Positions 1,749 through 64,000 of a DNA stretch of 64,000 bases are shown piece by piece. Position numbers and translations under genes: made by a program. This stretch comes from Heterotrichella gracilis. Lineage: Eukaryota; Sar; Xanthophyceae; Tribonematales; Xanthonemataceae. Positions within the stretch are counted from its first letter, which is position 1. Every line of letters starts with the position of its first letter. The notes beneath the pieces are model-generated. The model had not been told where the DNA came from and made no database searches. It saw only the letters and a list, made by a program, of their open reading frames with translations. The stretch covers positions 32,825 to 96,824 of the forward strand of contig JAULBX010013983.1 of the NCBI GenBank assembly GCA_032358255.1, written 5' to 3'.

Positions 1749-4700
1749 ATGGATCAACAGGCCCAGAGTCTGAGCACTCCACAACCCGCAGCAGGCAAAT
1801 ATGGGTTGAACCAGAGGCCTTGCTGCTTCGGGAGATGCTCTCCTGGGGGTGGAGCCAGGGGGCCAATGGGCGGGCCAAAGACAAGCCCTCGGGCGCACAC
1901 ATGCTTCCTCCAAGCACTCCTTTCACTATTGCTCATCCCTGGGAGTGGTACCAGCTCGCCAGCTGGCGCACCCGTGGTACCTTCCAGGACCAAGTTGACT
2001 GTGACGTGCCTCCCTGGTGTGGCTGCTATGTTGGTGGTTTGGAGTGGAGTGGTGGGGCAGTGGGGGGTACTGGCCCAGCCACCAGACCCCCCACCACCCC
2101 CTACAGTCATACCCCAATCGTACCCCCGACCACCACCCAGGCCTCCATCCCCCCCTAGACCACCAAAACCACCACCATCACCACCAAAACCGCCGCCAGC
2201 CTTGCCACCACCACCAGACCCACCACCGCCGCCGCCCGACCCCCCCTCCCCACCCGCACCCCCACCCCCACCTGACCTGCCGCCACCATCACCACCACCA
2301 CCAGATCCACCGCCACCACCACCAGCACTGCCACCAGCATTGCCTCCACCACCATCACCACCACCACCATCACCACCACCACCATCACCACCACCACCAT
2401 CGCCCCCTCCTCCATCACCCCCTCCACCAGATCAACCGCCACCATTCCCACCCCCTCCCAATCCACCCCCACCATCCCCCGTACCGCCATCGCCACCACC
2501 ACCATCGCCACTACCGCCATCATCACCACCGCCAGCCGCATCCCCACCACCGCCTACACCACCCCTACCAGTGCCACCACCACCTCGCCCACCGCCACCA
2601 GCCCCATTACCACCACCGCCACCACCAATCTCCCTCCCCCCAGCGCCCCCACCACCACTCTCCCCGCCACCACCTCCCCCACCCCTCCCCCCGCCACCAT
2701 TCCCCCCGCCACCACCCACCCCCCTCCTCGACACCACTCCTCCCCTCCTCACCCTCCTTGGTGCCTCCCCCCTCACCATGTACCAGGGGAGGCGTTATAC
2801 TGACCCTGGGGCAGTAGCCATGGATGATGTGGATGGGCCGGTGGCAAACATTTCAGTGGCAGGAACAGCAGGCGTGGACACAATGAGGGTGGGTACAAAA
2901 CCCTAGGCTGTAACCCTAGCACATAAAAACCCTGATGAAACCCTTCAGGCCTAAAACATTGCAGTCGCTGGAGCAGCAGGCGTGGACACAATGGGGGTGG
3001 GTACAAACCCTAGGCTGTGAACCCTGCGATTTGAAAGTAACTGCAAGTGGGAGGACCCTTGTGAAACCTCTTCAGATGTGGTACTCTTTAGCTTTGGCAA
3101 TTCCAGCAAAAACGACTTGTTTTCAAACAACCCTTTGGGTGTGAAATTCCTTAGTCTTGGCATGGACACCATTACCTTCTTTTCACCCCCCACTTGCCTC
3201 TCCCCCCCCAGGTTGGCACCTACAACGTGACCTACACCGCCACAGATGCAGCAGGGAACAGAGCCACCGCACTGCGCCAGGTGGTGGTGGTTAGCCCATG
3301 TGCCCCACCTGAGGCCATGTGCCCCGCCACGTGCCGTTGCAGCACCTATGGGGTGTGCTTTGCAGCGGCGGTGGTGGGGGTGGTGTGCGAGGGAGGTGCA
3401 GGGGCAGGTATGCGTGGGGATTTGTGAAGGTTTCTCAAATGCAAATAATTGTCATTTATCCATTTTTACCTAAAAATATTGCTTTGATTCTATTCGTATG
3501 TGCATTTCTTTCAACTTTGATTGTTTCAAGTTATTCAGTTTCGCTTTGTACTTTTATATGTTTTCATTTATTACGATATTGTTTTTATATTATTAAATGG
3601 CATGCGCTGGTGCAGCGGTTGACTCTGGCATCGACACCACTCCACCTGTCATCATCCTATTCAATGTGACCCAAGGGGAGGACAGCACATGGACCACGCT
3701 GGCTAACGGGACAAGGGTACTGGACACAACAGTGACAGTAGGTAGGCGCACATTGTGTGAGGTGCATGCAATTTAGCAATTCCATGGTGCTGGACACTGC
3801 TGAACAGCGCCACACCCACCCCACCCACCTGCACCTCCTGCCTCTACCCTCACCCACCCCACACCCTCAGGCACCACCTGTATGGACTCCTACCTTGCAC
3901 TGGATGACACTATCGGCAGCATAGCCTCCCTCTGTTTCCTTCCCCTCCACGCACCCCCTATCGCCTCCCCCGTCCCACCTCATCCGTCCTGTTTCCCCCT
4001 CAGCACCCCTCCTCATTCCCCACCCACTCTGCAAACCTGTAAATGAAGTCTCCCCATTTCAGGCACCACTTTTATCGATTCCTTCCTTGCCCTGGATGAC
4101 ACTTACGGAAACATAACCTCCTCTGTTTCCTCCTTTGGTGGCGCCTCCCTTGACCCCAGCCAGCCCACGCCCCCCCAGCAGCCCCACCTCATCACCTATG
4201 ATGTGGTGGATGGGGCGGGGAATAAGGCAGCCACGCAGCGCAGGAGGGTCAACGTGCTGTGCCCACAGGTGCGGGGTGGGTTAGTAGGGGGGAAAGGGGT
4301 GCTGAGTTGTGGGTGGATGGGTGTGGGGAGGGGGAAGGTGAATGCATGGGCTGTTAATGGTGTGGGTAACATGGCGGCAAGACAGGAGGGTTTATGTGCT
4401 GTGCCCACAGGTGGGGGGTGGGGTGGTGGGGGGAAGGGTGCATGTGCTGTGGCTGTACGTGGGGAGGGGGTGGGCGGTGGTGGGTGCACATGCTGTGCGT
4501 ACATGTGGTGGTACAAATGGCTACAGACAGAGGTGGGGTGTTGAGTGGCGTGTGGGTGACAGCAGCAGACAATGCATGGAGTGCATGCGTGAGGATTTGT
4601 AGGCCTTCTATCTTCAATTCTAAAACGATATCTATGCTTGCAGGGCCAGTTCATTTGCACCCCCCTAGATGGTGGGCCCCTATTTTGCAGCAAATCAGCA

Positions 4701-7700
4701 GCCTGCCCCCCTCCCCTGGATTTGGGCACCAGCACATTTGCGCGCCCCTTGCCGGTCATCCAGCTCATAGGACCCTCGATTGTGACCACTTCCGAGGGGG
4801 CGGCGTACCAGAAATGTGCCCCAAATGCGCCGCCCAGCAGCATTTGTGACAGGTGATGGCCAAACCTCCCGCCATTATCGTGTCATAAAGCTACCATACC
4901 ATCAATGCAAGAACCAGGAATTGCTTGATATGCACATTTCGAAATCGGCCTCCTCCTAATCATAATGAACATGCCACAGCTTGCGCAACCCCAAACTCCC
5001 ACAATGGGGCCCTCTCACGTTCGACTTTTCGGTTGGCACCCCCTGGCGGCGCCGTAATCATGATCATGAGGTTGTTTCCAAAATTGCCGTAATCATGGCG
5101 ATTTTGGAACCAACCTCCTCCTTCTACACCCACCTGCTACAGCTGTGCAACTCCAAACTCAAGTTGCGTGCATGTCCACTTTTCCTCCCCCTCTTCACGC
5201 GTGGCCTTTTGGTTCCTGCAGGGGTGCCACTGCCTTCCAGGCGGAGGACAACAATCTCACGCCCCGGGTGGAAGCCTGCTCTACCCCCAGGACTAGGTGG
5301 GTCATCATCTTGGGGATGAGAAAATTCCCGCCTTGACACCCTGCCGTCCTTTCTCCTGCCAGACTTGGACCCCAAAATGAAATCGGCGTGCATTTCCCAT
5401 ACCGTACTTGCTTATTTATTGAAACATTTATTCATTTATTCATTGCGCAGGTACCTGTGGGGCGATGTTGGCCTCAGGGGGTGCGCACTCAACACCAACC
5501 AGGCGGGGAGGTACCCCATCACGTACAGCGTGGCGGACAGCATGGGCAGGGTGGTGGCTGTGAACCGCACCCTGATGGTGGCCAAGGTCTGCCCGCAAGG
5601 GGAGCTAACATGCCCCGACCAGGTACGCGTGGTAGTAATCTTAATTATATTCAATTATACGCCAATCTCAGCAATCCATCTCGCCGAGTTGAACCGCCAC
5701 CTCAGCAATGTGCCTCTTGGGTTATTAACTGATGGCATGCATGCATAGCTGCCCACCAGCACCAGCAGCGCTGTCAAGCTGACTGTCAATGTCAACACCA
5801 AACCTGCTGTCACCACCCTCTTGCCAGCACTGGAGGCCATCCCCTGTATGGCGACTGTCCTTATCCTCCCCTGCCGGTGACTCAAGCCAGCCCCCATCCC
5901 CCTTCACCCCTCCCCAGGTGTCATGCAGCAGTGGCGGTGTGTGCTTGGCTGCGCTGGGTGGTGGTCAGCTGGCGGCCGCCCCAGCACCCACCGCACCCCC
6001 CACCATCCGGCTGAACACCGGGCCAGGCGTAGGGGAGGCGGTGTCAGTCAAGGAGGTAAGGGGAGGGGAAGTAGCAGAATGCACTGCACTTCATTGCAGT
6101 GATTCCATGTAATACGTGCCTTTGCTCAATAAAAGATTTTTATTGATGTCAAATAATATGCAGCCTCTGCCGCCCACCAATAACCTGCCCATGAAAACCC
6201 TTCTCCAGGGTTCCACATACGCCGCCTGCGCGCCCGGCACCGCCCCCTCCGCGGACGCCCCATGTGATCCCGGCGCGACCGCAATGGACGCCACGGGCCG
6301 CAACATCACCGCCGCCATCCTCGCATGCCCCTCCGCTGCCTGTCGCGCCGCGGGCTGCGCATCCGCAACATGCACGCCCTTCCTCTTCCAGACCCGCGGC
6401 CTCGCGCCGTGCGCCCTCGACACCTCGCAGCAAATAGGCACCCTGATAAATGTCACATTTGTGGTGTGGGATTCCGGGACGCCCCAGCGGATGGCGGCGG
6501 TGGTGCGCAAGGTGGTTATCACACGGCGATGTGCGGTGGGGGAGAATGAGTGCGCAGTGGCGGGGGTGGGGGGCGTGGCGGTGCAGTGCACCTCCCTGCC
6601 CTGCGAGCTGTGGTGAGTAAAATATTACCCCTTGGATTTTCACCATGCTGTCATTGTCCTGAGTTGTGCATTTGATATTGAACCCTGGCCGGGTAGACCA
6701 AAAATGGTTTAAAACTGTGATTTTGGCATGGAGATCATTGAACTGAAATATATATAAAAAAATCACCTTGCATCATTACAAATGGAACCACCAACCACCG
6801 TGCTGTCCTTCTGCTCATGAATTTCCTGCATTTTGTATTTCTCCAATATCTGTCTGGAGGCATGCATGTGTTAAATCCTCTCCATGCCAAATGCAACAGG
6901 GTAGACCAGAATGAATTATACGCTGGTTTTAGAAATTGATGAGCACGTTTTCATCTGATGTGGAAGTGGACAGTAAAACTGGAATAGTAGGAACAGTAGC
7001 GGCATGCGCGTAGATGATTGCCACACCATTTTCTCCCCCCTCTGACGTATGGCACTCACCTTGCAGGAACCTCTATGGTGGTGCCATCACCTCAGCCCTG
7101 CCCCCACACCTGACAGTATTAAACCACACACACCTCACTCCCTGGGTCATCCCCTACGGCATGCGCCCCACCTCCCCGCCCCTCCTCCCCTGCACCACCA
7201 CCCCCCTGGCACCCACCGCCCCCCAGCAATGCGCCGCATTTGCCACCACGGCAGGGGGGCGGGAAACCTCCCCCAACATCCGGGTGGTGGACGCCACCCC
7301 CTGCGGCCCAAATTCGACCTGTGCGGTGTGCGACATTTGGGGGGCAAATGTGGGGGCCTGCCCCCCCGGCCAGTACCTGCTACGGTACGAGGTGTGGGAT
7401 TACGACAGCTGGCAGTACGCGGCGCAGCACCAGCCATTGACGGTGGTGCAGCTGTTCCAATTCAGCCTGGTAAGCCACCAGTATTCTACTGTAGGGCAAA
7501 TGGTAGGGTCTTTGATAGGGACGATGCATAGTTGCTACTCCAGAGACATGTCGCGCTCCCCACCCCCCATTTTTGCTTTATCTACATTGCCCTCTGCTGC
7601 CAACTTCAGGCCTTTCCCCCCTCATCTGATTGCACCCTCTCAATCTTACCAGTAATCAAACCCAATTACACCACCGTCTGGCAGGACCTGTCCATTGATG

Positions 7701-10700
7701 TAATTGCATCCGATTACTCCACAGCCAGCGGGTATGCGGGTGCCCTGTCAGCCAATCGCACTGCACTTGAGGCCCTGCTGCGTTCCAACCTGAGCGCTGC
7801 TCTCTCCCCTGCAAACCTCATCCTCACCTCCCTGGCCCTAGGGGACATAAAGGTGCGTGGGTACCCTACACTGAGTATATTACATGCACTCCGACAAAAA
7901 AATCCCATCAGCAAAAACACCCTACTGTACTGAGTAAGCTATTGTAAAGTCAACTGCAAGCGTGCACGCGCTGTTTTGGTCTCTGCATGCATATGAGCAG
8001 ATAATATGCCTGCATTTTCCTGTTGATGTTTTGTGGGAAGGTCCCAAGCATTAAGAAATTTGCACCACGGCGCGCTTGCTTGTTTAAACCAGCATAATAA
8101 TAGCATATTCGGGAAAATTTTGTGCAATGGTGCAGGTAGCGGCCACTTCCCTCCCCACCACTTTCACCGTGATCATCCCCTTGGCCGCATCCCTGGGTGC
8201 CCCAGGAGGTGTGGGGGGCGCGGGGGGGAGCAGGCGACGTCTGCTGGGGTTTCATGAAAACCCCAGGGGCAATGGCATGCGATCCAGGATACTTCTTGGT
8301 GCAGGTAGGTTGACGCACCCTGGTTTATGTGGTGCATGGAAGCACTGAAATTTATGTTTGTTAAATATGTTATCCATGTTTCACCCCTTTAAACTGTATG
8401 TACTTTAAGTTTCACCCTTTTAAACTGTATGTACTCTAATAGAATTTTTGTAGTCCGTCGTTTGCCAAAAACAACAAGAGTACCTGCCTCCTTTCCTCCT
8501 ACTGACAGCTTTGAGATGCCCATGCTGGTACTAACCCGCTCCCCTTGACCCCCACAGATCCCCTCCCCCCCATCCAAGCCACCCTCCTCAACGCCCTCCC
8601 CCCCGCCCTCACCAACCTCTCCTCCTACCTCACCACCACCCTCTCCACCCCCCTTGCACCCCCCTCCCTCACCACCCCCACCGCCAGCCTGACAGCCGCC
8701 GCCCAGGTTTCACCTCCTGTCAGTGGGGAGGTGGCGGGGTATGGGAGTGTGCTGGGGAATGTGACCCGGATGGCTTCCAGGCTGGATTTCCTGCTGAATG
8801 CCACCCAAATGGCATTCAATGTGGAGGTGAGGAATGCGCTCCTTTGAGAATTGGCACCCTCTGTGTGTGCATGTGTCTTGGCGTATTAAACCTTGGCGTA
8901 TAAAACCGCGACACATGCGAAGCCACGTATTCAATCCACAAGCAAAAATCCTTGCACAATGAAACAAAAGAAACAGGTATCAGCAACAAATTCATTGCTC
9001 CATTTTCAGCTGACATCTGCTCCCCTCGCCCCAGGTTGAGACCGTTGAGGCCATTGCTGCTGCTTGGAGCCAGCTGGGGAGGGAGGTGCGCACCAGCCAG
9101 GTGGGTGGGATATGGAACTGTGTTTGTCAGGGGAGGAGGAGGCCAAGGGTGAACAGTAACTGCTCCAAAAAATATAATACAAAATTGATCGAAGCACTCA
9201 GCAACGTGTGTGAATTGCTTGTCGGTTACCGTATCCCCATGGCTCCTCGATTACAACACGCATCTTCAAGACAATTTCTATGCTATTATCATTTTCTTCT
9301 TTATGTGTATTAATTTGATACCCACTTCTTTTACCCCTTTGTTTATCATTTCATCACTTTTCTTGCCCCCAGGCCACCTTGGCTACCCTGGCCTCCCAGC
9401 TGGCAGCCAAGGTCAAGGGGGGGAAAGCAAATCAAGACCTGGCAGACACCTACGCCAGCCTGTCAGCCATGCAAGCAGCTGCCAACCAGCTGCTGGCAGC
9501 ACAGTACTCCAGCGTCCAGCTGGCACTGCGGAACATGTTTGACCTGGGGATGCTGGACGGGGATGGGGGAAACGTGGGGGGATACTGCGGGGAGGTCGGG
9601 GAGAGGGGGGGGTACGCGCGGGTGTACTTCAATGTGAGCAATTTTGGGGAGGGGCAAGGGGGCAATAGCAGCGGGAACGCCACCAAAGGGGGGGTCAGCA
9701 GCAGTGTGGGAAACGGGGGTGGGATGCGCAAAGACCCCAAATGGGGATTCGTGTTCCAGTCTCCCAGTCCCAGCCAAAGTGAGGTATCATCCCAGCGAAA
9801 GCGCTACATCGGCAATAACGCAAATGTGGTGATTGGGGGCCTATTAGTGCACCAGGTCCGGTCCACGACCCCCCCACATTGCGCCACCAGATTCCACCCC
9901 CTGGTGTTCAAATGCGACCCCAACCGCATTGCGGTGGCCCAGGCGTGGCGCAACGCCACAAACCCCAGCAGCAAAACCCTAGGATCCTCTAGTGCCACCC
10001 CCAGCAGCCCCTTTGGGGTGGACCCTGTGTTCCTGGAGACCTCGGAGATGTTCAATGCGGAGGTGGCGGGGCAAGTGGGTGCGTCACATTTGGACCCCTT
10101 CCATGTGTACACCTGCACACACTAGCAGGGGTATACTAATAATACTAACCCTAAACACCAAACCCTAAACAGTTAGTATTATTAGTATACCCCTGACACT
10201 AGCATTTGCCCTTGGAGAGAGAGTAGTCATGTTGACCATGCTTTAAACCCTAGAATGTGCATGCTTGCCACCACACACCTGCAGGAGATTGCCAATTGTT
10301 GCTCTCTAGTTGCTAGTTTTTGGTGAGAATGCACTTGCCGATGTCTACCCATGTGTACAGTTGTGTGCATGTTCGAGATTGTTCATCGGGAGTCAAAATG
10401 TACCATGCAAGTGAAGAACGCTCTTCGTGTGCGTAACCCAAATTTTAACATGAAAACCATCTCTTGCAGGTGTCTACTACAACTCCTCCCCTGGATCGCC
10501 AGATCTCAACACGTATGGAAAACCCTACGGCTTCCACAGCCTAGGGTTTACCGGCCTGCCCTTAGGGTTTCCAATCCTGGTGGATGGCCAGATGTCCAGC
10601 GCCTCAGCAGGTGAGCTGTTTTTAAAGGTGCCTTTAAGTATTTAAATTATATTATTTAAGCTTCAAAGATGTTACCAACAGCGCTGTAGCACTACATGTA

Positions 10701-13700
10701 CAGCCAGACCTACAGAATGCCCTACATGAGCACTTGGCACCAGGACAGCACTGCTGCTTTTGCGCAAATCATGTGCTCTGCCCCAGTACATGCATATATG
10801 CCACAATCACTGAGTTCAGGAAAAAAATAAATTTGAATTCTGAGGTATGATTGTTATTTGCAGGTGCTCTGCTCCAGTACCTTAAGGATGGCGCCTTCCT
10901 CGATGCCTACACGCGCCAGCTCAGCATCAGGCTGCTCACGTACAACTCAAAGCTGCAAGTGTTTGGGTAAGGGTTCAACCAACTGAATCCGTGCAAGGGT
11001 TTGCAAGGCTGGCCAAGGGTTTTGCGAAGTTCTGTGTGTTGGGCATTTGTTGTTGTACTTTCAGCTAAGCTACAACATATTGAATCCTTAACAACACGGC
11101 GTTGTCCTCCCAGCCCACTCCCTCTCACCCCCGCAACCCTATCCCATACCCACACCCATCCTCCCCCTCCCCAGCTACGCCAACCTCCTCCTCACCTGGC
11201 TACCCTCCGGCTCCATTACCCTGCGCACATGGGTCAGCACCATGCCGCTCCTGCAGTACTCAGCCACGTCCGCAGCCACAGCCGACCACTCCTCCAGCCT
11301 GCGCGCCGCCACGGATGTGCTTCTGCTGGTGCTGGTGGCTGCACAGGCAGGGTTCTGGGCGCACGTGATGTGGCAGCGGGTGCAGGCAAGGGTCACGCAC
11401 AAGGTGGGTGGAGGACGGGAGACATGTAGGGGGAGAGAAGGGGAAATTTGAGGTTTGGAGATATATATGATCCGATTTTTTATTGGTGGGGGAGGGACGC
11501 ATGATGTGGCAGTGGATGCAGGCACGGGTCACGCACAAGGTGGGTGGATGGGGAGGAAGGGAGGGGACGGTTAGAGCACTTAAGGAGGGAACGGGGAGAG
11601 TATGGACATTCCAACTTTGTAGGTTGCTGGCTATATGGCAACCCCATTGAGTGAAAATTTGCCGTGTTTGTGTTGCATTAACCCCCATCCCCATGCGTGC
11701 AGATCAACATCAACATCAGCATGCGGTGGATGGCAGTCGACGCAATGGACCTGGTCATGGAATGCATGTCCCACCTCAGAAATTCACATATTAGAATTAC
11801 CCAGAATTTCACCCTGAAACTCGTGCTCCACCTTTCCCCACCACCCTCCGCAGACCAACATCAGCATGCGGTGGATGGCATTTGACGCAATTGACCTCGC
11901 CATGAAGATGGGCATCCTGGCAATTTTCGGGACCTACGCGCTTGGCGTCACCCGCCGGTTTGATGCCGATCCCCACTACATGGTGTATGATTCTATTGAT
12001 ACCCCCCCTGCTCACATGCTGCTGACCAATCGGGTGGGGGATGGGGAGGGGGGCCCAGGGGGTGCGGGCAGGTGGATGCTGCAGGAGAATGCAAAGGGTA
12101 GGTCACCTTGAGGACTGTGTGGTATGGTTCTTTCGAACTGCGGCGGGCTTTTCAGTATTATATCTGCACATGTATTGTGTTTTGGTTCGTGAGGTCTGTG
12201 TTGGCCTCATAGCCTGATTGCTGTGTCTTCATGATTAACCGTTAAATGAATAACAGTACGAGTCACGTTTAATAACATGAATCATGAAGCAAATGCACCT
12301 CGTTGCCACCAACGCAGAGTTCAATATAGAATATTTTAATACTTGATATAGTCATTTATAATACACAACCCTTGCAGGCATCGACTCCCTCGCCCACCTG
12401 CTCACCTACCAGCAGCGCCTGGCCACCCTAGCCACCGCCTACACCGCCCTGCAAGGCATATCCATTCTCCTCATGGTGGTGCGCCTCCTGTGGTTGCTAT
12501 CTGCCCAAAGGAGGCTGCGGGTGGTGACCGCAGCCCTGTTTGTGGCGCTTCCCAAGCTGGCGTACGTGGGGGTGGTGGTGGTGGTGCTGATGGTGGGCAT
12601 GGCGGGGGTGGGGGTGGTGGGTTTTGGGGACTGGATGGCGGAGGTGTGCAGCGTTGCGGAGGCGGTGTCAGGTGGGTTGGTGGGACGTCAGGCCGGCGCA
12701 ATGCAAGGAAAGCATTAAAAGATAACAGGGGTACGCGTTTTGATGTAGTTTGCCATGCAAGTGTGAACAAAATGAAAGATGGGATCTATTTTCTGCTATT
12801 TTGATCGTGAAGATCCACGTATGTGATTGTAGGCCATTCCCCTCCCCTTCTTGACACCTCAACCACCACCTGCAGGCGTGTTTGTCGAGATGTTCAGCGG
12901 CCAGATGCAGCCCTTTGTGTCCAACGTGCGCTCATCGCCCTACGCGCAAGCGGCTGTCACCAACGCCGCGCAGCAGGTGCTAGCGGGGCTGTGGTACTTT
13001 CTGGTGCCCCTCGTCACATTCATTGTCATCTGGAGGTGCGCATGTTTGAAAGACGAGCATGCTATAAAAGTACTAGATAATTCTCATTATTTAAGACTAT
13101 TAGTAGTAGTACTGTAATTATTTTTATTATGCGTTTATCATTATCTACTGTCAATAAGATTGATATTCATTTAAATAATTGTATGATGCCAGGGAATGCC
13201 TGGGTAGTTACGTTTGGTCCATTTATTGCCTTGTGCTTATCAAAAATGTTTTGTTTGCTTGTCATTTTTTGTCTCATATTCCTGCATTACTCTTAATTTC
13301 TGCATTTACAACTTCTTTTCTGTATCTGCTTTTCCGCGCTGAACCCACCCCCTCCACACCCCATCACAGATCCGTACTGGGTGTGCTGGTGGGTGAGTTC
13401 CGCGCCCAAGCCGCAGCCGCCAAGGGCGCCCCCTCCATAGCCACCGAGCTCAAGCACCTGCTTGAGGAGAGGTGCCAGGTGGCGATGGGTGGCGCGCCCT
13501 CGAACCCTAGCCTGCTAAGGGTGCTGACCCTGGCGGCGTTCAGGAGGTAGGTGCGGCGGTGGGGGTGTGGAGGAGGGGACATTTTTGTGAAGCTTCTCTG
13601 TTACTTTTAATATCTCCACCCTGGACCCTGGCCTCCTGCCACCACACTTTATTCTCTACCCTGTAATCAACCCCGCTCCTGCCCCCTCTAGGACCGCACA

Positions 13701-17813: not shown

Positions 17814-18647
17814 GGGGGGCGACGGGCGGGGGGGTGGTACCGCCGTGTTGAGGGGGTTTGCACTGCGGGATGTGATTGTGGTTGTGCCACCTGGGAGCTT
17901 AGACATGCGCCAACCTTTGGGCCCCACAGGGCAACCAACCATCCCACTTTCTTGCTCATGGAATGTGGTTTGCATCAGGCGGTGACATGGTGGCCCACTA
18001 GTGATCCGCCTTTATGATAATTTGGGATGCAGCAACTGCTGCTGAATCCTATGGGACTACACTACTGTTGGGTGGGAGCGTGTAGTGCAGTCACTGATGC
18101 CACAATGCTAGGATTCTTTTGATAACACCCATTTTGCTCTTTGTCTACTTGGCAGGTGTGCCTTTGCGCTTTCCATTCACTGCCAGGGATTGCAAGGTGT
18201 TACTAACCTCTAGGGTGCGTTACTGCACAGGTTGCTGCCATGCCTGGCTGTATTTTCAACATGGGTTGTGGCGTGCCGCCATTTGTGGGGGTTGTTTTGT
18301 ATCTACCTTTTTAGAGGACCAAAAATATCAGCACAAATTTATATCAAATGCATTTTCCGTGAAAATACATGGAATTACCCAAACATATCTGATTCGTATC
18401 CCAAACCTTCTGGGACCGTGTAACCCCTTTCCATTTAACCAGGAGCATCGCCTGCGCGATACCTATTTTGCTTGGAACGCACCAGTGTGTTGCTCCTCTA
18501 AACCCTGGCAACCTTTTCACCAGGTGCACGTTGGGTGGTGCATGCATGCATATGTGTGTGGACCGTGCCATGGTCAGCATATCTCCGCATCAGCCCTCGC
18601 AACGTCCAACCCACAGTACTAGCAGCTGAACACTCATCCACAGCGAC
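17814..18647. other. intergenic region between the polycystin-like and SDH genes
   Basis: A 167-codon frame (18,119-18,622, +) is open but has no recognisable domain and no codon pattern like its neighbours, so it is not called. The interval should hold the 3' UTR of the giant channel gene and the promoter of the dehydrogenase. No hairpin or repeat stands out. Confidence 0.5.
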
Positions 18648-28038: not shown

Positions 28039-28110
28039 GGACTGTGGTAATATTTTTGCCAGTTTTTGACACCAATTTGCCATTTTACTCATCAAGTACA
28101 GTACCTATCA

Positions 28111-52200: not shown

Positions 52201-55200
52201 GGGGTGTCGGTGACGGTGGTGGGTATGGCGGTGAGGAGGACATGTGAGTCTGCTGTGAAGGCCAGTACGTTGGGGATGGTGGGGTGCCAGGCAAGGTGGA
52301 TCTCAGAGGCAGGGGCTGCATGGGGGGGGCAGGTGGGTTGTTTACTTTGGTACGTGCAATTACTTAGGAGTTTTATTATGGTAAAAGCACGTCAGGAGTG
52401 CAAGCACGTCCATTGCGTGAGAGCGGCCACTGTTTAAATCACTGATAGAGCAAAAGACCATGCTTGCAAGTGTATTTGGTTTATGAAAGTGCAGATTGTG
52501 CAAACCTACTGCAAATCACACCACACACGCCCAGATTACCAAGACGAGGACGCCCGTATCCCATAGCATGACACATCCTCAGCCACTGCAGCCTTACCCC
52601 ATTCACCTAGCTCCACTTCTGCCACGCACACACCCATCTTCCCACACCCCACGCCCCCACCCACCCCCACCACCCACCCCCATTGACCGCCACTTTGACT
52701 TGCATGAGCAGCTGGCATGCCCCCCCCACCCACTTCCCCCACACACAAACCACCCACAACCCCGCACACCACACCTCCATTGATCGTCACATTGACTTGC
52801 ATGAGCAGCTGCGGAGCAATCTCCCCCTCCTCCTCCACCAGCAGCCACACAAACACACGCCCATCAGAGCCTCCCGTGGCCAGCACCATAGAGGCGTCAG
52901 ACTGGAACCTGAAACGGGAAGGGAAGAAAGTGTTTTATTTTTGGGGTAGGGGAGCATTAGGGGTATGGGAGCATTAGGCATTAGGGTTTAGAATTTTTGC
53001 AACCTCCCATGGCCAGTACCATGGAGGCGTCGGACTGGAACCTGAAACGGGGAGGGAAGATGTGTTTTCTTGGCATTAGGGGTAAGGGTTTAGGGTTTTC
53101 AGGACCTCCAGTGGCTAGCACCAACGAAGTTGCAGGTCGGTAAATTTGCAGCGCGTGAGGTAAACTTGCTGTACCAAGGTGCGGTTCCCCTTTGCGCCTG
53201 GCTGGGTACAGTAAAGTTTGCCTGAATGGGGAGTCAACTTGATGTCTGCAACACTCCGCTGCTTGCTCTGAAAGGTGCAGGTCGGTAAGTTAGCAGGGGA
53301 TGAGGCGAATCAGTTGTACCAGGGTGCGTCTCCCCATTGACCCTGGGTACAGTAAAGTTTGCCTGAATGGGGAGTCAACTTGATGTCTGCAATACTCCGC
53401 TGCTTGCTCTGAAAGGTGCAGGTCGGCAAGTTAGCAGGGGATGAGGCGAATCAATTGTACCAGGGTGCGGCGTCCCATTGCGCCTGGCTGGGTACAGTAA
53501 AGTTTGGCTGAATGGGGAGTCAACTTGATGTCTGCAATACTCCGCTGTCTGCAATACTCCGCTGCTTGCTCTGAAAGGTGCAGGTCGGTAATTTAGCAGG
53601 GGATGAGGCGAATCAGTTGTACCAGGGTGCGGCTCCGCACTGCTCCTGGGTACAGTAGAGTTGGCTGAATAGAGGGTCAACTTGATGTCTGCAATACGCC
53701 GCTGCTTGCGCTGGAAGTTGCGGGTCGGTAAGTTTGTAGGGGATGAGGCGAATCACTTGTACCAGGGTAAGGCTTCTCATTGCGCCGGGCTGGGTACAGT
53801 AAAGTTTGCCTGAATGGGGAGTCAACTTGATGTCTGCAACACTCCGCTGTCTGCACAACTCCGCTGCTTGCTCTGAAAGGTGCAGGTCGGTAAGTTTGCT
53901 GGGAATGAGGCGAATCAGTTGTACCAGGGTGCGGCTCCCCAATGACCCTGTAGAGTTGGCTGAATAGGAGGGGGTCAACTTGATGTCTGCAATACTCCGC
54001 TGCTTGCTCTGAAAGGTGCAGGTCGGCAAGTTTGTAGGGGATGAGGCGAATCACTTGTACCAGGGTAAGGCGTCCCATTGCGCCTGGCTGGGTACAGTAA
54101 AGTTTGGCTGAATGGGGGGTCAACTTGATGTCTGCAATACTCCGCTGTCTGCACTACTCCCCTGCTTGCGCTGAAAGGTGCAGGTCGGTAAGTTTGCTGG
54201 GGATGAGGCGAATCAGTTGTACCAGGGTGCGGCTCCCTATTGACCCTGGGTACAGTAAAGTTGGCCGAATGGTGGCCCAACTTGATGTCTGCAATACTCC
54301 GCTGTCTGCAACACTCCGCTGCTTGCGCTGAAAATTGCAGGTCGGTAACTTTGCTGGGGATGAGGCGAATCAGTTGTACCAGGGTGCGGCTCCCCATTGA
54401 CCCTGGGTACAGTAAAGTTTGGCTGAATGGTGGCCCAACTTGATGTCTGCAATACTCCGCTGCTTGCGCTGAAAGGTGCAGGTCGGTAACTTTGCTGGGG
54501 ATGAGGCGAATCAGTTGTACCAGGGTGCGGCGTCCCATTGCGCCTGGGTACAGTAAAGTTGGCGGAATGGTGGCTTAACTTGATGTCTGCAACACTCCGC
54601 TGTCTGCACTACTCCACTGCTTGCGCTGAAAGGTGCAGGTCGGCGCCGTGCGCCAAACTTATTGTACAAGGTGCGGTTCCCTATAGCGCCTGGTTGGGTA
54701 CAGTAAAGTTGGTCGCCAAACTTGAAGTCTGCAATACTCAAAACCCACCTCCTGACGATGGGCATAGGGTCCCATACCACCCACACCCAACCCCCTGTGT
54801 TCTGTGAGAGGCACCTCCTCCTCTCCCCCCCCCAATCCCATCACCCACCACCCACACCACCCACCTTAGGTCGGTGTCGGGGGCCATGTGCCCCACCCCA
54901 CTCCCCACCCACCCATTCCCACCACCGACCGCCGCCGCTAGCCCTTGCACACAGGCGGCGACCATCACCCACCACCCATCTAAGGTCAGTGACAGGCCCC
55001 TCCTCCCCCTCCCCCCAAACCCCACCACCACCTCCCCCACCACCCACCTTAGGTCTGTGACGGGTGCCGCGTGGCCCTTGACCAGCGCCCTTGCCGCTGT
55101 CAGTTTGTTGAGGCAGCGTATGTGTCCCTGCTTGAGCCCGTAGCATATGTAGCTGCCGTTGACCGCCACCTGGCGCCAGTGCCGGGTGCACAGCTCGGAG

Positions 55201-56101
55201 GCGTACATGGTGATGGGGGACACCTGCGATGGGGGGTGGGAAGGGGGGGGGGATGAGGGGGTGTGGAAGGGGGTGGGAGGTGGGTATGGTTTGTATGGGC
55301 GTCCACGGGCATTTACCATCAGGATAAGGACTGCCCTATCATCCATCTGGTAGGGTTCAGGGACTAGGTTTTAGGGACAGGGTTTGGGGTGTACGTGGTG
55401 CCTAACTCCAGCTGGGAAGCTTCCCCCTGCGTGTTGTCATCCACCTGATAGGGTTTTAGGACTAGGTTTGATGGTCTAGGGTTTAGGGTGTACATGGTGC
55501 CCACCTCCAGCTGGGAGCTTCCCCCAGCATGTTGTCACCCATCTGGTAGGGTTTAGGTTTTAAGGCCTAGGGTTAGGGTAGACATGGGGCTTACCTCCAA
55601 TTGGGGAGCCTCCCCCTGCGTGTTGTCATCCACCTGGTAGGTGACGGTGGGTGTGGGGGGCAGGGCGCGACCCGTGGGACACTCCTTGTGCCGGATGCTG
55701 GGGGGTGCACCTATGGGGGGAGGGGGGCAGGAGTTGGTGTGTGGGGGAGGTCAGGGGTTCGATATAAGACTTTTGGGGCGGGGACTCCTGCCCTTGGCAA
55801 GCCGCAGCCATGTGCGATGACATTGGCTAGTTACCAACTTGCAAGCAAGCACATGCTGGTGAGAAGTCACCCTTGCAATACTCCCAGCTCTGCATGGGCA
55901 AGCCTTCCAAGTGGAAACTATAATAAGGGGTTGTGGGTTGTGGGCTATGAGCTGTGCAAGGATGGGCAACATGACCCGATTCCACCAAGATGCATCGTGA
56001 TGGCTCGTACCCATGACAGCCGCTGCCAAGGCGTTGCCCGCGCTGCTGTGCGCTGCGGCGTACATCTGCTGCTCGATGGCAGGGATGGTGACGTTGTTCA
56101 T
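46244..56101 (-). CDS. VCS: VARICOSE / EDC4 mRNA-decapping scaffold
   Basis: Fifteen exons chain in phase to 1,083 aa: 56101-56011, 55710-55595, 55223-55048, 52908-52775, 52315-52065, 51809-51488, 51120-50923, 50739-50534, 50201-49841, 49432-49223, 48784-48576, 48072-47881, 47607-47461, 47134-46802, 46549-46244. Scaffold that brings DCP1/DCP2 together in P-bodies for 5'-3' mRNA decay. Seen: N-terminal WD40 region (TPITKYxS-type start ITMYASELCTRHWRQVAVNG, YICYGLKQGHIRCLN, MVLATGGSDGRVFVWLL, EIHLAWHPTIPNVLAFTADS, VHIWWFGGD, FAVQTTAIQHLNIDYGMCVA); a Pro/Ser-rich linker with RLLTPQQLAHD; a coiled-coil part (FQSSFQAQLLPAFEAGCAAM, FSQVQSALSVGV); and the EDC4 C-terminal helical domain (EISALLAERRFEDAFNTALS, VVTWLCTQ, LPLSQMVLLSLIQQLGFDL). 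Likely an essential housekeeping gene, read divergently from trpD. Confidence 0.9.
48085..48400 (-). repeat. two acceptor-side copies of VARICOSE exon 12
   Basis: The exon start (plus-strand about 48,010-48,075: AGCAGCTTCTCAAAGCCCTG, GCGCTCCTCCGCTAGGTGCG, CTCCTCGGTGATCT) recurs at about 48,200-48,270 and 48,330-48,395. The 48,330 copy is almost identical apart from a single-base loss (CCCTGCGCTCC), which breaks its frame. Confidence 0.85.
52990..53125 (-). repeat. acceptor-side copies of VARICOSE exon 4
   Basis: Plus-strand CCTCCCATGGCCAGTACCAT, GGAGGCGTCGGACTGGAACC, TGAAACGGGGAGGGAAG (53,003-53,060) copies 52,874-52,926. A third, weaker copy (CCTCCAGTGGCTAGCACCAA) at 53,105 leads directly into the minisatellite. 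TAGGGTTTAG lies between the copies. Confidence 0.8.
53100..54725. repeat. intronic minisatellite, 11 units of 136-162 bp
   Basis: About 1.6 kb of head-to-tail units in the intron between VARICOSE exons 3 and 4. The landmark GCAGGTCGGTAA (with variants) starts at about 53,132, 53,277, 53,418, 53,580, 53,720, 53,882, 54,018, 54,180, 54,337, 54,478 and 54,635. Spacings are 145, 141, 162, 140, 162, 136, 162, 157, 141 and 157. Long units carry an extra CTGTCTGCAATACTCCG-type segment. Each unit contains GGGTACAGTAAAGTTTG and CAACTTGATGTCTGCAA. Several minus-strand frames run through it (up to 187 codons), but unit lengths do not keep one frame, so no protein is called. Confidence 0.9.
54840..55047 (-). 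repeat. donor-side copies of VARICOSE exon 3
   Basis: Plus-strand CACCTTAGGTCGGTGTCGGG (about 54,861) and CATCTAAGGTCAGTGACAGG (about 54,977) copy the exon 3 junction CACCTTAGGTCTGTGACGGG (about 55,046). The three share the splice junction and about 30 bases of exon. Confidence 0.75.
55385..55594 (-). repeat. two donor-side copies of VARICOSE exon 2
   Basis: The exon 2 end (plus-strand 55,590-55,642: TTACCTCCAATTGGGGAGCC, TCCCCCTGCGTGTTGTCATC, CACCTGGTAGG) is repeated at about 55,401-55,452 and 55,501-55,553, spaced about 100 bases. TAGGGTTTAGG-type sequence lies in every spacer. Confidence 0.85.
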
Positions 56102-56807
56102 GGCTGAAAACAACACCAGCTGCGTCCTAGTTAGTTTGCTTCTTAAATCTCAGTCGGTGGGATGAGAGTTAAGAAGATGGGTGGGGGTGGGTGGTTGGAC
56201 GAGCAGCGAGATCGTTGAATTTAGGACAGTGTGCAAATTTCAAGAGGTAGGTAGGTCAGTCAGTATGGACAAGTCGCGACTCGGGCAGCTATGGTACCAT
56301 CAAGAAATGGCATCAGCAAGGGAGTATGACCAATCGCATATGCATGCACTGCCACCCAGGTTAGGTTGACACCGAGGTTGCCGTCAACGTGGTTGCAGTT
56401 GTTGTTATGCCATGGATTCCAACGCATGTGATACAGTCTGGGACGCATGCAATTCCGTGATTGACCGGCGGGCCACCTCCCGCCGACCGTGGCTCAGCCC
56501 GCCTAACCTTATCAAGAACGAGAAATCGCATATTTCTACAAGCCAACGCCAATCCTTTTCAGTCACGTATTGACCAATAGATACATTGGGTACTATACCG
56601 TTGCAAGCAAAGCCTCGTATCAGTATAGTCGAACCAGCACGCTTGATCCTGCTGTATGCATGCGTTACAAACCCTCCGACACCCCCTCCCTACCATCCCA
56701 GCCAGCTGTTGTCACCCACTCCCCAGAAACCACCTCCACTTCTTATTCTTACCTTACCATTTCCACACTCCAAAGGCTGCTGTAGCCTGATACCAAAACA
56801 CACCAAG
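56102..56807. promoter_or_regulatory. shared divergent promoter region, VARICOSE (-) and trpD (+)
   Basis: About 706 bases separate the two start codons, which face away from each other. The sequence includes CCAAT-like motifs (GACCAATCGCA at about 56,328; TTGACCAATAG at about 56,570) and no recognised gene. A bidirectional promoter is an inference from geometry; a non-coding 5' exon of either gene could also lie here. Confidence 0.4.
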
Positions 56808-59800
56808 ATGCACACCCGTACTGCCATGCCAAGCTCTGGCACGCACCTCCAGGCTTTCAGACAACAGCCAGTCGCTTCTCGCCCCCCCACCAGGCGGCCA
56901 TGCAGTGCCCAGAGGCGGCGGTCTGTCGTGCCACGGGCGGTGGCTGCATCCCCACCCACAGAGCAGCTCCTGGCAGTGAACCAGGTACCCCCACCACCCA
57001 CCCCACCACCCACCCACCTCCCACCCACCAACTCAGGTCACCTACCATCTGCACGCACCACCCATTCCAGTTTCCCTCCTGCAATCCATACCCTCTGCCC
57101 TCCTCCACACCCAGCTGCCCACTCCATCCCTTCACACCCTCTCTCACCCATGCGCCTCGGCCGCCCTCCGTCGCGCAGTTTCCCCTCGCCCTCCCCTCAT
57201 TTTCTGCCAATTTTCTCCCTTGCAGGTTCTTGAAGAGCTTGTGCTTGCACGGGACCTGTCCATACACCAGACACGCGCAACGCTGGAGGTAGGGGCCGGG
57301 GAGTACCCTATAAACCCTAAACCCTAACTGTAAATCCCAAACCCTAAAAGGAAGCTTGTGCTGGTGCGCAACCTGTCCAGTGCAACACTGGAGGTAGGGG
57401 CGGGAGTACCCTATTTACTCTAAACCCTAACTATAAATCCCAAACCCTAAAGAGGAGTTTGTGCTGGTCCAGTGCAACACTGGAGGTAGGGGCTTGGTAG
57501 GACTACATAAATCCCAGTGCCTAAGCAGGTCATGCTTACTACTGAATTTCTCAAATCTAGGGTTTGCCAAGCGTTCTTTGTGGCTGGCTAGGGAGTGCGG
57601 TCATGTCGTAGACATGTGATTTGAATCTGCAGATGGCGAGCACATTGCGTGAAGAAATGCAGGTGCGGATGCCGCAGTAGCATTTACACTCACCATGCAC
57701 TGGTGATCACTGCAATGCATCTGAATATCTTCACGCAATGTGCTCGCCATCTGACTGACAATTGCATCCCAACTGCAACATGATAGCCATTTTAGTCTGG
57801 CTGTGATGCCTGATTGCATGCGACTGACCTAAACCCTACCCTAAACTACCTCCCCCCCCACCCACCCAGGGAGCTTCTGGATGCTGACAATAAGATGCAG
57901 ATAAAATTGACTCAACCCTAGACCATGAACCCTAAACAACACGAACACCCTAGACCCTTGACAGACCTCGTTTACTTGTGCCTTAGGAGCTTCTGGATGC
58001 CGACAACCAGGTGCAGATGGCGGCATTCCTCGTGCTGCTAAGGGCAAAGGTGGGCGGGACCAAAACCCTAATGCGCTAGGATGTGAAACCCTGCACAGTG
58101 GCCAGTGTCCAAAGCAGTGCCAGGCGCATTAGTAGTATGAATACTAAATAAATTGTTTACGTTAGCGAATGTGATTATGCTGTAGGGTTGAGGGTGTGCG
58201 CGGTCTGACTAACAAGCGAAGTGAGGACCAGTTACGGAGCTACACCAGTGATTGCTTCGCTGCAGGGTGATATCAACCCAAGACCCTTCTCCAAAACCCT
58301 ACCCATCCCCATCCCGCAGGGTGAGACTGCCCAGGAGATTGCTGGGCTGGCGCAGGCGATGCAGTCCAAGGGGGTGCATGTGGATGCAGGAGGGGATGGT
58401 AGGTGGAAGGAGGGTTGGGGGGCAAAAGTGCCCTTGCAGTGCTTTGCTTGCATGCTTAGTGGGCGCGCAGTAGCAATGGCTACTGTTTGCACGCTCTGCC
58501 TATGCTGGAATCTTGCCATCCACCGATGTCTCAAAAGGATTGGTGAACAACTTCAAACAAATATGTCCTATTATTGCAAAAGAAAACAAGTGAAAAGGTG
58601 GGCATAGTGGGCTCCTGCGTCTCCCACCCACACACCCACTCACCCCTCCTGCAGTTGTGGACATAGTGGGTACCGGGGGGGATGGCATCGGCTCAGTCAA
58701 CATCTCAACAGGGGCCAGCGTTATTGCGGCTGCAGCGGGGGCGAAAGTGGCCAAGCATGGGAACCGGTCTGTGTCGAGTCTGTGTGGGAGTGCGGATGTG
58801 CTGGAGGTGGGTGGGGGTGGGGGTGGAGTGGGAACGGAGGAGGGGGGATGCGCTGGAGATGGGGTGGGTGTGGGGTAGGGGTGGGAAATTGCTGACAGGC
58901 CAGTGGTGCTCTGCATGAAATGGGGTAGTGCATGATGAACGCATCTGGGAATGTGGAGTTTTGACGTAAGATTACGATGATTGAATGAATTACCACAATC
59001 GCCGCAGTCATGTTCGGTCCAAGATTGCTGCTGCTGAATCCCTCCCCATTCTGATCATAACCATTTCCCCCCGTATCCATAGGCTCTGGGCGTTGTCATT
59101 GACCTGGGCCCCAAGGGGGTTGAGGCATGTTTGAAGGAGGCGGGGGTGGCGTTCATGTTTGCGCCCCGATACCACCCAGCCATGAAGGCGGTGGTGCCGG
59201 TCAGGAAAGCGCTCAAGGTACGGGTTTAGGATTTTAGGTGTTTAGGGTTTGGTGTTTGCGTCCCAATACCACCCAGCCATGAAGGCGGTGGTGCCGGTCA
59301 GGAAAGCGCTCAAGGTACGGGTTTAGGGTTTTGGGTGTTTAGGGTTTGGTGTTTGCGCCCCGATACCACCCAGCCATGAAGGCGGTGGTGCCGGTCAGGA
59401 AAGCACTCAAGGTACGGGTTTAGGGTTTTGGGTGTTTAGGGTTTGGTGTTTGCGCCCCAATACCACCCAGCCATGAAGGCGGTGGTGCCGGTCAGGAAAG
59501 CACTCAAGGTAAAGGTTTTGGCCTCAAAAGGTGTAATGTAAGTATTCTGGGTGTTGTGGGTGTGTGCATGCCCCAGGGTTTACATGTCAATGGTTTGGAA
59601 TTTAGAGTTTCCGTAGCAACCCTTGGCCAAATCCGGCACCACAGCACCTCCCTTAGAATTTAAAGACCACCGCCCAGGTACCGATCCATGAAGTAGTGGG
59701 CTTCTAACCATTTCAAATGACACTCTAGGCATGTCTTTCAACACAGGAGGCTGCTTCCGGGGAAGGCATTTGAACGCAAAGCGCACCGCCCTTCAGATCA

Positions 59801-60991
59801 AAGAACACACACAACCCACACATAAACACACCCTGTCATGACCTCCCAAATGCCCCCTTTTCCAGGTGCGCACCGCCTTCAACATCCTTGGCCCCATGAC
59901 CAACCCCGCGGGCGCCAAGTACGGCGTGATTGGCGTGTATTCACCTTCCATATCACACCTCATGGCGGACGCACTCATGGTGAGGACACCAGATCATGGT
60001 GGTTCAAATTCGACATTGATGTTCTTTTGCATCACGAGTGGAGGAGAACCTGTTGCTTTTAAATCGCGAATGGAGTAGAATCTGCTATTTTTGTTGGCTC
60101 TCACTTATCAATTGCAAGGATGTGAAAGTTATGCTGGGAAGGTGCCAGGTATTCACCCCCGTCCCCCGTCCCCGTCATATGTGCGCAGGTCCTGGGCATG
60201 AAAAAGGCCCTTGTGGTGCATTCCATGGGGCTGGATGAGCTGACCCCCATGGGGCCTGCAAATGCCGTGGAAATTTCCTGCATTTCTCACCCTCTGCCCC
60301 TTGTTTTGCGCAGGTCCTGGGCATGAAAAAGGCCCTTGTGGTGCATTCCATGGGGCTGGATGAGCTGACCCCCATGGGGCCCGCAGATGTGGTTGAGGTG
60401 ACCCCCGAGGGAAATGTGGCGTATTGCTTGGACCCCCTCCGGCTGGGGATCCCCAGGTGCACCGTCGAGGATTTGAAGGGGGGCGACCCCACCGTCAACG
60501 CGCAAATGCTGAGGGTGCGTGGCGACACTAACTCAACCTTTGAACAAACCCTAGAACATTGAATCTTTAATTCTGAAACCACAGGCAGGATACAGCAGAA
60601 GTGGTGTGGCAGGCTTGTGTGAAGTGGTGCCAAGGAAAAGAAAACGTGCCCTGACAACTAATACCAGCATTGATGATACCGTGCCCTGTTACCCTCAACC
60701 TCCAATTGGCCCCAGTCCTGAACCTGTACCCACACCCTTCTCCACCACAAAACCCTCACCGGCCCCCTCCCACCCCTCCAGGATGTGTTTGGCGGCGCTC
60801 GAGGCCCAGTGGCGGACGCCCTCAACCTGAACGCAGGCTTTGCGCTCGCTGCCTGCCAGGTGGCTCCCACACCCCAGGAGGGTATTCTAATGGCGCAGGA
60901 GGCGCAGAGGAGTGGGAAGGCGGGGGACACCCTTGCTGCGTGGGTGCGGGTCAGCCAAGAGCAGGCGGCGCTTGAGGGGAGAGGGGGGTGA
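56808..60991 (+). CDS. PAT1: anthranilate phosphoribosyltransferase, plastid-type (TrpD)
   Basis: Second committed step of tryptophan synthesis: anthranilate + PRPP to phosphoribosyl-anthranilate. Nine exons in phase, 397 aa: 56808-56984, 57226-57288, 57987-58049, 58320-58398, 58655-58806, 59083-59217, 59866-59979, 60314-60514, 60782-60991. The first 45 or so residues ([20 protein letters not shown]..., ending [12 protein letters not shown]) look like a chloroplast transit peptide. Seen: PRPP/substrate motif [105 protein letters not shown]. All catalytic-loop residues of the family appear present. Four of its eight introns hold copies of exon edges. Confidence 0.95.
57289..57510 (+). repeat. 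two extra donor-side copies of trpD exon 2
   Basis: The exon 2 end (AGCTTGTGCTTGC, ACCTGTCCA, GCAACGCTGGAGGTAGGGGC, 57,236-57,297) recurs at about 57,353-57,400 and 57,452-57,493, each ending CTGGAGGTAGGGGC. Between copies is AAACCCTAAACCCTAACTGT and its variant. The third copy has lost about 15 bases. Confidence 0.85.
57630..57756. repeat. 127-bp hairpin in a trpD intron
   Basis: CAGATGGCGAGCACATTGCG with TGAAGA (57,630-57,655) is repeated inverted and exactly at about 57,728-57,753. The inner flanks (GAAATGCAGGTGC and GCATCTGAATATC) remain partly complementary. The loop is about 70 bases. No convincing target duplication was seen. On both arms the sense reading resembles nothing known. Confidence 0.8.
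57868..57912 (+). repeat. acceptor-side copy of trpD exon 3
   Basis: GGGAGCTTCTGGATGCTGAC, AATAAGATGCAGAT copies the start of exon 3 (57,985-58,020: AGGAGCTTCTGGATGCCGAC, AACCAGGTGCAGAT) 116 bases upstream. AACCCTAAAC lies between. Confidence 0.8.
59157..59517 (+). repeat. 97-bp perfect-period repeat: exon 6 end plus intron start, four units
   Basis: Units start at 59,157, 59,254, 59,351 and 59,448 (GTTTGCGCCCCGATACCACC), each including the last 61 bases of exon 6, the AAG|GTA donor and a telomere-like intron start (TTTAGGGTTTTGGGTGTTTA). Divergence between units is only a few substitutions. Any of the four AAG|GTACGG or GTAAAGG donors could in principle be used; the first keeps the protein at family length. 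Confidence 0.95.
60184..60262 (+). repeat. acceptor-side copy of trpD exon 8
   Basis: GCGCAGGTCCTGGGCATGAA, AAAGGCCCTTGTGGTGCATT, CCATGGGGCTGGATGAGCTG, ACCCCCATGGGGCC is present at 60,184-60,258 and again, without a mismatch, at 60,309-60,382. The second copy continues in frame to the next donor; the first diverges into GCAAATGCCG. Spacing is about 126 bases. The perfect identity suggests the youngest duplication in the window. Confidence 0.9.
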
Positions 60992-63938: not shown

Positions 63939-64000
63939 GTGGGGGGTGGGGGTGGTTGTTGTTGTTGGGGTTGTGGGGGGGGTGGGGGGGGGGGGGGGGG

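Follow-up and report, generated by a model that had tools for sequence, protein, structure and literature searches.

Copies of exon edges, often with telomere-like filler, in introns of a Heterotrichella gracilis genome stretch

Why do introns hold copies of the exon edges beside them? The question is raised by a 64,000-nucleotide stretch of the Heterotrichella gracilis genome (contig JAULBX010013983.1, positions 32,825 to 96,824; here part of contig C141 in the 68.5 Mb, 903-contig genome searched), which we call the window and which contains no N. An earlier note, made from the sequence alone, had described its introns as filled with tandem copies of their own splice junctions. The copies are real. 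All 18 sets of coordinates listed in that note are local direct repeats, 17 of them recovered by self-BLAST of the window, where the starts may be shifted by some tens of bases at most; the eighteenth, 31,977/32,053, is a 20/22 match between 31,977-31,998 and 32,061-32,082 that includes AG/GTG (in motifs, the slash marks the splice junction). Exon-edge copies bearing the splice site occur on both strands, in seven predicted genes and also outside the window, with identities of about 70 to 100%.

The copies are direct, local and frequent. Self-BLAST of the window gave 46 near direct pairs; six further pairs are inverted, being palindromes or one palindrome pair. A stricter test gave 31 direct clusters against 1 inverted in the window, and 44 against 2 in a comparison sample of 20 other 10-kb stretches (200 kb) of the same genome; a control with 3 resampled sequences of each gave no near-direct-repeat cluster. 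Each intron of our gene models (described below) was scored against its own flanking exon ends at a cut-off of 44, for 322 introns, 86 in the window and 236 outside. In this genome-sample test 45 of the 322 match their own exon ends, as against 2 for reverse-complemented ends and 0 for unrelated introns. Copy-bearing introns at this cut-off number 22/86 in the window, where some introns are bounded by doubtful micro-exons, and a smaller share, 23/236, outside; copies are thus present, but 'filled' was too strong a word. Twenty-eight exon edges in the window have an intronic copy, 16 of them donors (one a birth-like case) and 12 acceptors, with two (41,859 and 35,506) assigned by reading the sequence where the gene model drew them otherwise. 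They are as follows, with percentages giving identity:

2,846-3,025, + strand: donor edge (exon end 2,888) and copy 2,954-3,025; 90%.
4,059-4,131, + strand: acceptor edge, copy 3,867-3,940; 84%; polypyrimidine ahead of both.
4,241-4,470, + strand: donor edge (exon end 4,268) and copy 4,383-4,470; 80%.
11,366-11,566, + strand: donor edge (exon end 11,403) and copy 11,502-11,566; 85%.
11,856-11,904, + strand: acceptor edge, copy 11,711-11,759; 90%.
13,856-13,923, + strand: acceptor edge, copy 13,690-13,757; 91%; match begins at AG, with differing polypyrimidine tracts ahead of both.
19,517-19,780, + strand: donor edge (exon end 19,571) and copy 19,721-19,780; 85%; AAACCCT motifs in the filler.
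20,984-21,199, + strand: birth-like intron 21,059-21,196; 71%; GTG, telomere-like filler and a repeat of the 75 exon bases before it that closes with AG; each copy holds AGGTG.
30,769-31,004, + strand: donor edge (exon end 30,812) and copy 30,959-31,004; 89%; a weaker copy between, by eye.
31,977-32,082, + strand: donor edge (exon end 31,995) and short copy 32,061-32,082; 20/22 identical.
32,463-32,530, + strand: acceptor edge, copy 32,374-32,445; 79%.
35,506-35,564, - strand: acceptor edge, copy 35,639-35,699; 80%; TGCAG/GCCCTTCAGAC in both; by eye, outside the scored models.
38,390-38,467, - strand: donor edge, copy 38,289-38,366; 88%; filler G-rich telomere-like.
38,586-38,667, - strand: acceptor edge, copy 38,750-38,831; 87%.
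40,844-40,944, - strand: donor edge, copy 40,620-40,722; 92%; match holds only GTA of the intron, with weaker similarity beyond, by eye.
41,859-41,905, - strand: acceptor edge, copy 41,966-42,012; 96%; TGCAG/GTGGTGCCC in both; by reading, the gene finder having chosen the other copy.
42,238-42,293, - strand: donor edge, copy 42,144-42,200; 93%; filler CCTAAACCCTAAACCCTAGAACCC.
42,966-43,210, - strand: donor edge 43,173-43,210 and tandem copies at lower coordinates; 64-bp array, 85%.
43,897-43,962, - strand: acceptor edge, copy 44,099-44,164; 89%; some similarity kept in the flanks ahead of both.
47,439-47,483, - strand: donor edge, copy 47,346-47,390; 87%; telomere-like filler.
48,003-48,077, - strand: acceptor edge, copies 48,197-48,267 and 48,325-48,398; 88% and 92%.
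52,727-52,811, - strand: donor edge, copy 52,631-52,714; 79%.
52,870-52,952, - strand: acceptor edge, copy 53,003-53,088; 84%; telomere-like filler.
55,339-55,641, - strand: donor edge 55,535-55,641 and about two tandem copies; 98-bp array, 80%; telomere-like filler.
57,226-57,493, + strand: TrpD donor edge (exon end 57,288) and two further copies; 103-bp array, 88%; CCCTAAA-type filler in each.
57,986-58,018, + strand: acceptor edge, copy 57,870-57,902; 88%.
59,156-59,521, + strand: TrpD donor edge (exon end 59,217), three further copies of 97 bp, with GTACGGGTTTAGGG; 3.7 copies, 96%.
60,307-60,389, + strand: TrpD acceptor edge, copy 60,182-60,264; 98%; match begins 7 bases ahead of the exon.

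An AATAAC microsatellite (40,526-40,600) adjoins the donor-edge copy at 40,620, and similar repeats lie on other contigs.

The duplications are concentrated where exons end. Among 72 clusters, 51 lie at exon edges, 5 are wholly noncoding, and 16 fall into two other classes (11 touching exon on both sides, 5 inside exons). With these 16 omitted, 51 of 56 comparable events are at exon edges, where random placement predicts 36%; when all 72 are placed at random among tolerable sites, 25.9 edge clusters are expected, and 400 trials gave at most 39. Two intron-interior cases are a satellite-like array (locus L010, 5,363) and an old repeat (L025, 2,877). The shortage of interior duplications is not a detection matter, since simulated ones were detected at a rate of 0.98 at per-lineage divergence below 0.05 and of 0.91 at 0.05-0.10; over the full divergence range the rate was 0.59 in intron interiors against 0.81 at edges (1,189 of 1,400 planned cases were simulated). 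Another intron array, of about ten 141-157 bp units, occupies 53,127-54,739 in one intron of the EDC4-like gene; it has weaker relatives on five other contigs and by eye shares a stretch with the array at L010 5,363-5,679.

Seventy-four simple pairs were classed, leaving out overlapping arrays, matches longer than 160 nt and pairs outside gene models: 26 donor, 19 acceptor, 11 other, 7 exon-exon, 6 intron-intron, 4 exon-only and 1 birth-like. Edge pairs were tested for homology of the flank to what stands between the copies: it is unmarked (z<3) in 40 of 47 and reaches z>=3 in the other 7. The common form is therefore X-F-X, in which unrelated filler F parts two copies X of the exon edge. The description of the copies as tandem holds for the true arrays at 59,156, 43,041, 55,339 and 57,277 but not for those 40 pairs. 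Median match lengths over 46 edge pairs, of which one was entered by hand, are 42 bases on the exon side and 12 on the intron side. Where identity is at least 92% (12 pairs, again with one entered by hand), the match reaches a median of 6 nt into the intron and no more than 9 nt in 10 cases, against 2.2 expected; among all donor copies the intron part is that short in 11/26, against 4.2 expected. Fast divergence masking a longer intron homology was considered and rejected: past the match, the pairs are about as similar as mismatched partners (.55 for donors and.48 for acceptors as mean percentile), and only 2/26 donor and 1/18 acceptor pairs exceed the.95 percentile. Because the freshest pairs are the sharpest, decay is disfavoured as the cause of the sharp ends.

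The filler itself has a distinct composition. Telomere-like repeats make up 9.0% of intron base pairs between copies, an eleven-fold enrichment over the 0.8% in other intron DNA; intergenic sequence has 0.3% and exons 0.1%. They cluster in the first 45 bases past donors and 15-44 bases ahead of acceptors; filler compared with far flank gives 25% against 4% at donors and 12% against 6% at acceptors. About half of the fillers bear them, at most 15/26 at donors and 6/19 at acceptors. The acceptor cases are all C-rich: the G-rich orientation occurs in 0/19 acceptor fillers and nowhere within 120 bases ahead of acceptors. Genome-wide, where a 22-base TTTAGGG-type pattern has 666 matches (overlapping ones included), GCAGG follows the C-rich repeat CCCTAAACCCTAA within 30 nt 983 times and the G-rich TTTAGGGTTTAGG 566 times, and CAGGT lies ahead of C-rich repeats 641 times within 30 bases against 415 times at 100-130 bases. 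When 16 loci with telomere repeats were chosen by pattern and compared at a looser cut-off, local direct repeats enclosed or adjoined 11 of them, two of these being one site and two already in the sample; 9 of the 11 touch a modelled exon edge. Telomere-bearing introns in which no copy was detected have the repeat within 45 nt of an edge in 26/37 cases (11.9 expected) and are perhaps older events. Neither the telomere-like filler nor the anchoring at junctions, nor the neutral decay and paired acceptors described next, had been mentioned in the earlier note. At L027:8128-8942, in a gene that we take to be rhodanese-like, an array of exon-end copies (AEPNTKLIILDTQ) with telomere-like filler parallels the one at 59,156.

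Intronic copies decay like unconstrained DNA. Functional and intronic copies differ at codon positions 1/2/3 by.088/.092/.161, which fits one copy free and the other constrained, and gaps fall inside the exon part in 23/58 pairs. The functional donor is stronger than the intronic donor in 20/25 cases; the latter retains GT in 25/26, and such copies could act as stwintrons (an intron nested in a splice element, with stepwise removal). At acceptors the two sites are paired. In ten sharp acceptor pairs (intron part <=12) the pyrimidine fraction is.72 ahead of one copy and.72 ahead of the other, compared with.68 at normal acceptors and.50 ahead of random intronic AG (p=2e-5). Such tracts suggest that the intronic copy follows a seemingly working acceptor and that the filler supplies a second one; except at 43,897, the tracts ahead of the two copies bear no clear relation to each other.

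Introns that overlap a pair are longer than others (median 411 against 298 nt; 54 and 243 introns), which fits intron growth, as the earlier note had proposed. Its further suggestion, intron birth, is clear once, at 20,984/21,107, and not in the other pairs. There intron 21,059-21,196, found by reading in a register scan of predicted introns, consists of filler plus copy with AG/GTG at both ends, and as judged from its sequence matches the textbook picture of birth through duplication of an AG/GT piece. In the same scan 4,268/4,410 is also in register, but the 'exon' that follows it is doubtful. A shared mobile intron family was rejected as the source: an all-against-all comparison of the 322 introns with telomere repeats masked (51,681 pairs) revealed no shared mobile element, with only 20 pairs sharing sequence, 14 within one locus, 3 via a palindrome and 3 through short between-locus matches. 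A near-perfect palindrome of about 50 bp occurs at 20,727-20,777 and 21,748-21,796, in two introns of the sorbitol-dehydrogenase-like gene; it has at least 77 genome matches, both strands often being counted, and looks like a tiny inverted-repeat element.

What process would leave such scars? We infer staggered breaks at exon borders, repaired with filler in a way that duplicates the border, so that the exon gains a new splice context and the old edge is buried in the intron; we give this an even chance of being right. The two strands would be cut at different points, one a few bases from the splice junction and the other about 20-100 bases inside the exon. As the X-F-X form suggests, the overhangs would be made double-stranded and linked by inserted filler, in many cases telomeric repeats in which telomerase may have a part, leaving X on both sides of F. 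The copy joined to the uninterrupted exon would serve as the exon edge, and the other, presumably the older site, would be intronic and decay neutrally. At acceptors the filler would precede the exon and carry the polypyrimidine tract, often CCCTAAA; at donors it would form the intron start. The intron would lengthen with each event, as the length comparison supports, and some sites would repeat the event or expand as tandem arrays. Where a duplicated exon piece holds AG/GT away from an older intron, filler plus copy could become a new intron, as in the single case above. For the placing of the cuts our guess is an exon-bounded cue, for example an R-loop formed by spliced RNA at the gene it came from, or an exon nucleosome.

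Several observations weigh against this proposal. Seven of the 20 sampled stretches have no repeat cluster at all, and copy density is uneven among loci (window plus 19 stretches: chi2 46, 19 df, p=0.0005). The 14 pairs below 85% identity show no junction anchoring. Similarity past the match is slightly higher on the intron than on the exon side (.55 against.45 at donors,.48 against.16 at acceptors, with many zero ties), and pairs such as 40,620 and 43,897 may retain some hidden intron homology. At least 24 of 45 fillers lack a telomere-like stretch, so telomerase could account for only part of the cases; upstream of acceptor copies the flank, too, is somewhat rich in telomere repeats (6%, 6/19), and the far-distance CAGGT control is just 1.5-fold lower, in a count that tandem copies can inflate. 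Intronic acceptors are as strong as functional ones (functional stronger in 7/16), although the upstream acceptor would have to be ignored.

Other processes might produce the same picture. Ordinary local tandem duplication could occur everywhere, with selection cleaning the exons and leaving survivors in introns and across exon edges; the real arrays at 59,156, 43,041 and 55,339 and the flank homology (z>=3) in 7/47 edge pairs speak for it. We consider it quite unlikely, as 51 of the 72 clusters are edge cases where random placement gives 25.9, interior duplications are mostly detectable yet rare, and the freshest pairs end near the splice junction. Alternatively X-F-X insertions may hit exons at random, the survivors being those in which filler beside a duplicated AG or GT beat the old splice site, so that anchoring and filler content would be selected rather than mutational. 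The fillers of sharp acceptor pairs are indeed pyrimidine-rich, the telomere-like ones are C-rich only, and functional donors beat their copies in 20/25. This too seems unlikely: an exon-only process would be needed anyway, because tolerated intron-interior insertions are missing, and a donor-side duplication should survive with any intron length, yet donor copies lean to the junction (11/26 at <=9 nt, 4.2 expected).

That the copies are nearly always exon-bearing and direct, and few in DNA without a gene model, would also suit repair templated by RNA, with pieces of (pre-)mRNA copied into intron breaks. Past the copy, however, 25 pairs resemble the intron edge more than the other exon (mean 10.6 against 7.4 of 25 identical), and some fresh pairs share 7-13 intron bases including the splice dinucleotide (42,144; 60,182; L011 8,019), which makes this reading improbable; copying from spliced mRNA is rejected, the neighbouring exon not being seen past the copies in those 25 pairs. 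We think it very improbable that the copies are functional alternative exon starts or ends. Both acceptors of a pair look functional, but the copies decay as unconstrained DNA, 23/58 pairs are gapped in the exon part, and the TrpD and sorbitol-dehydrogenase proteins run gap-free, without an extra piece, at copy-bearing junctions. An assembly artefact has almost no claim: 100-N gaps exist in the assembly (stretches L016 and L021), but the copies mostly differ by 2-30% with differing fillers, across many genes and contigs, and the window is free of N. The one stretch tried as a check for a second haplotype, 40,500-41,700, has no second copy in the assembly.

These results rest on gene models from a gene finder self-trained on the DNA of the window and the 200-kb sample. 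Two first versions were dropped for degenerate or merged genes. In the two-strand version that was kept, two genes are still fused (2,028-22,641) and some of the intronic copies appear as micro-exons. This version yields 51 genes and 341 introns (median 300) in window plus sample, with the consensus CAG/GTGNGT at donors and TGCAG/G at acceptors. Window proteins with Pfam support are TrpD, a sorbitol-dehydrogenase-like protein, a transglutaminase-like protein (presumably a peptide-N-glycanase), a Castor/Pollux-like channel with a bacterial-type globin and an HYR/polycystin-like protein; for a Ge1/EDC4-like WD40 protein the support is just above the cut-off, and the short predictions at 35,218-35,938 and 62,428-64,000 have no Pfam match. 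Three genes are placed as follows:

2,028-17,809, + strand: HYR/Ig-like and polycystin-like channel gene; Pfam HYR, Bact_surface_Ig-like, PKD_channel; merged with the next gene by the gene finder.
18,644-22,641, + strand: sorbitol-dehydrogenase-like gene; Pfam ADH_N, ADH_zinc_N; merged with the preceding gene by the gene finder.
56,177-60,991, + strand: predicted anthranilate phosphoribosyltransferase (TrpD) gene; Pfam Glycos_transf_3, 1.6e-88; PDB match over residues 10-331.

Against solved structures, the TrpD protein has no gap at its copy-bearing junctions, including 59,217, and the sorbitol-dehydrogenase-like protein has none at the junctions of the introns beginning at 19,572 and 21,059, which supports our choice of functional edge in those genes. 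Among the best 120 of 7,999 scored matches, the TrpD protein is 69-73% identical to proteins of green algae such as Chlorella vulgaris, Coccomyxa viridis, Bryopsis and Tetraselmis chuii, a likeness that points most probably to a green alga. The Castor/Pollux-like channel gene (36,392-45,172) is a single model whose C-terminal bacterial-type globin domain could reflect a fusion or two merged genes. Within 23,741-28,114, in a gene region that we take to be of LRR type, 24,211-25,602 and 26,657-28,114 are tandem duplicates at 79% identity.

The pattern seems to be a variant, with exon-edge copies and filler, of known intron gain by break repair or tandem duplication. Intron gain by tandem duplication is on record, and the passages on potato RdRp describe a duplication that crosses the intron-exon boundary (PMC4974935; review PMC3443670). 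With the AGGT model as given there our cases share duplicated gene segments beside splice sites, and 20,984/21,107 fits it while other pairs do not; the model has directly adjacent copies without filler, whereas 40/47 of our edge pairs have z<3 (arrays excepted). Most classed events here contain filler, create no intron and leave one decaying intronic copy, and 45/322 introns are touched. For Daphnia introns the relevant passages report inserts flanked by direct repeats from staggered double-strand breaks, 4-12 bp where shared with the exon and 4-17 bp where internal (PMC4202315). In both, inserted DNA is flanked by direct repeats of the adjacent exon end (direct and inverted clusters stand at 31:1 and 44:2 here) and repeated events enlarge introns; here, however, the repeat takes about 20-100 bp of exon, lies at existing splice junctions and often encloses telomere-like filler.

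Direct repeats close to intron borders also appear in a 2025 survey, where they measure 4-30 bp, with a mean of 11.4, and pair an intron's two borders (PMC11782384); ours join one border to the intron interior. Mammalian telomerase inserts telomeric repeats at double-strand breaks, a minority with target duplication (6/130 rodent and 4/25 primate loci; PMC2246262; a further paper on the subject is PMC8537989). Telomere-like inserts at presumed breaks would be common to both; the passages on them tie none to exon edges or splicing. Introners, according to the sections on them, likewise mass-produce intron sequence, in green algae among others, with 3-9 bp target duplications in some families (PMC9860276); here the all-against-all comparison of 322 introns revealed no common element, that is, no family of near-identical introns at unrelated sites. 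Searches of the open-licence literature on telomeric repeats in intron gain, on algal introns with telomeric DNA and on intron gain in green algae brought up no title or abstract with this pattern, most entries being judged from listings.

The source of new intron sequence has been described as mostly unknown even for recent introns (PMC4974935). Many introns here still hold the raw scar: which edge was copied, what was inserted and how far the copy has decayed. Tentatively, and with rather less than even confidence, we suggest that exon borders are the target of a repair process, possibly since breaks arise at the ends of spliced RNA or of a nucleosome. By adding filler, telomeric or other, and duplicating the border, it would let the genome go on exchanging its splice sites for filler-made ones and taking the old edges into its introns: a continuous generator of intron length and, occasionally, of new introns. 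If this is true, the break-repair origin of intron sequence would become directly testable, telomere-like filler would be tied to the creation of splice sites, and one would have to ask how a process of mutation could recognise the ends of exons.

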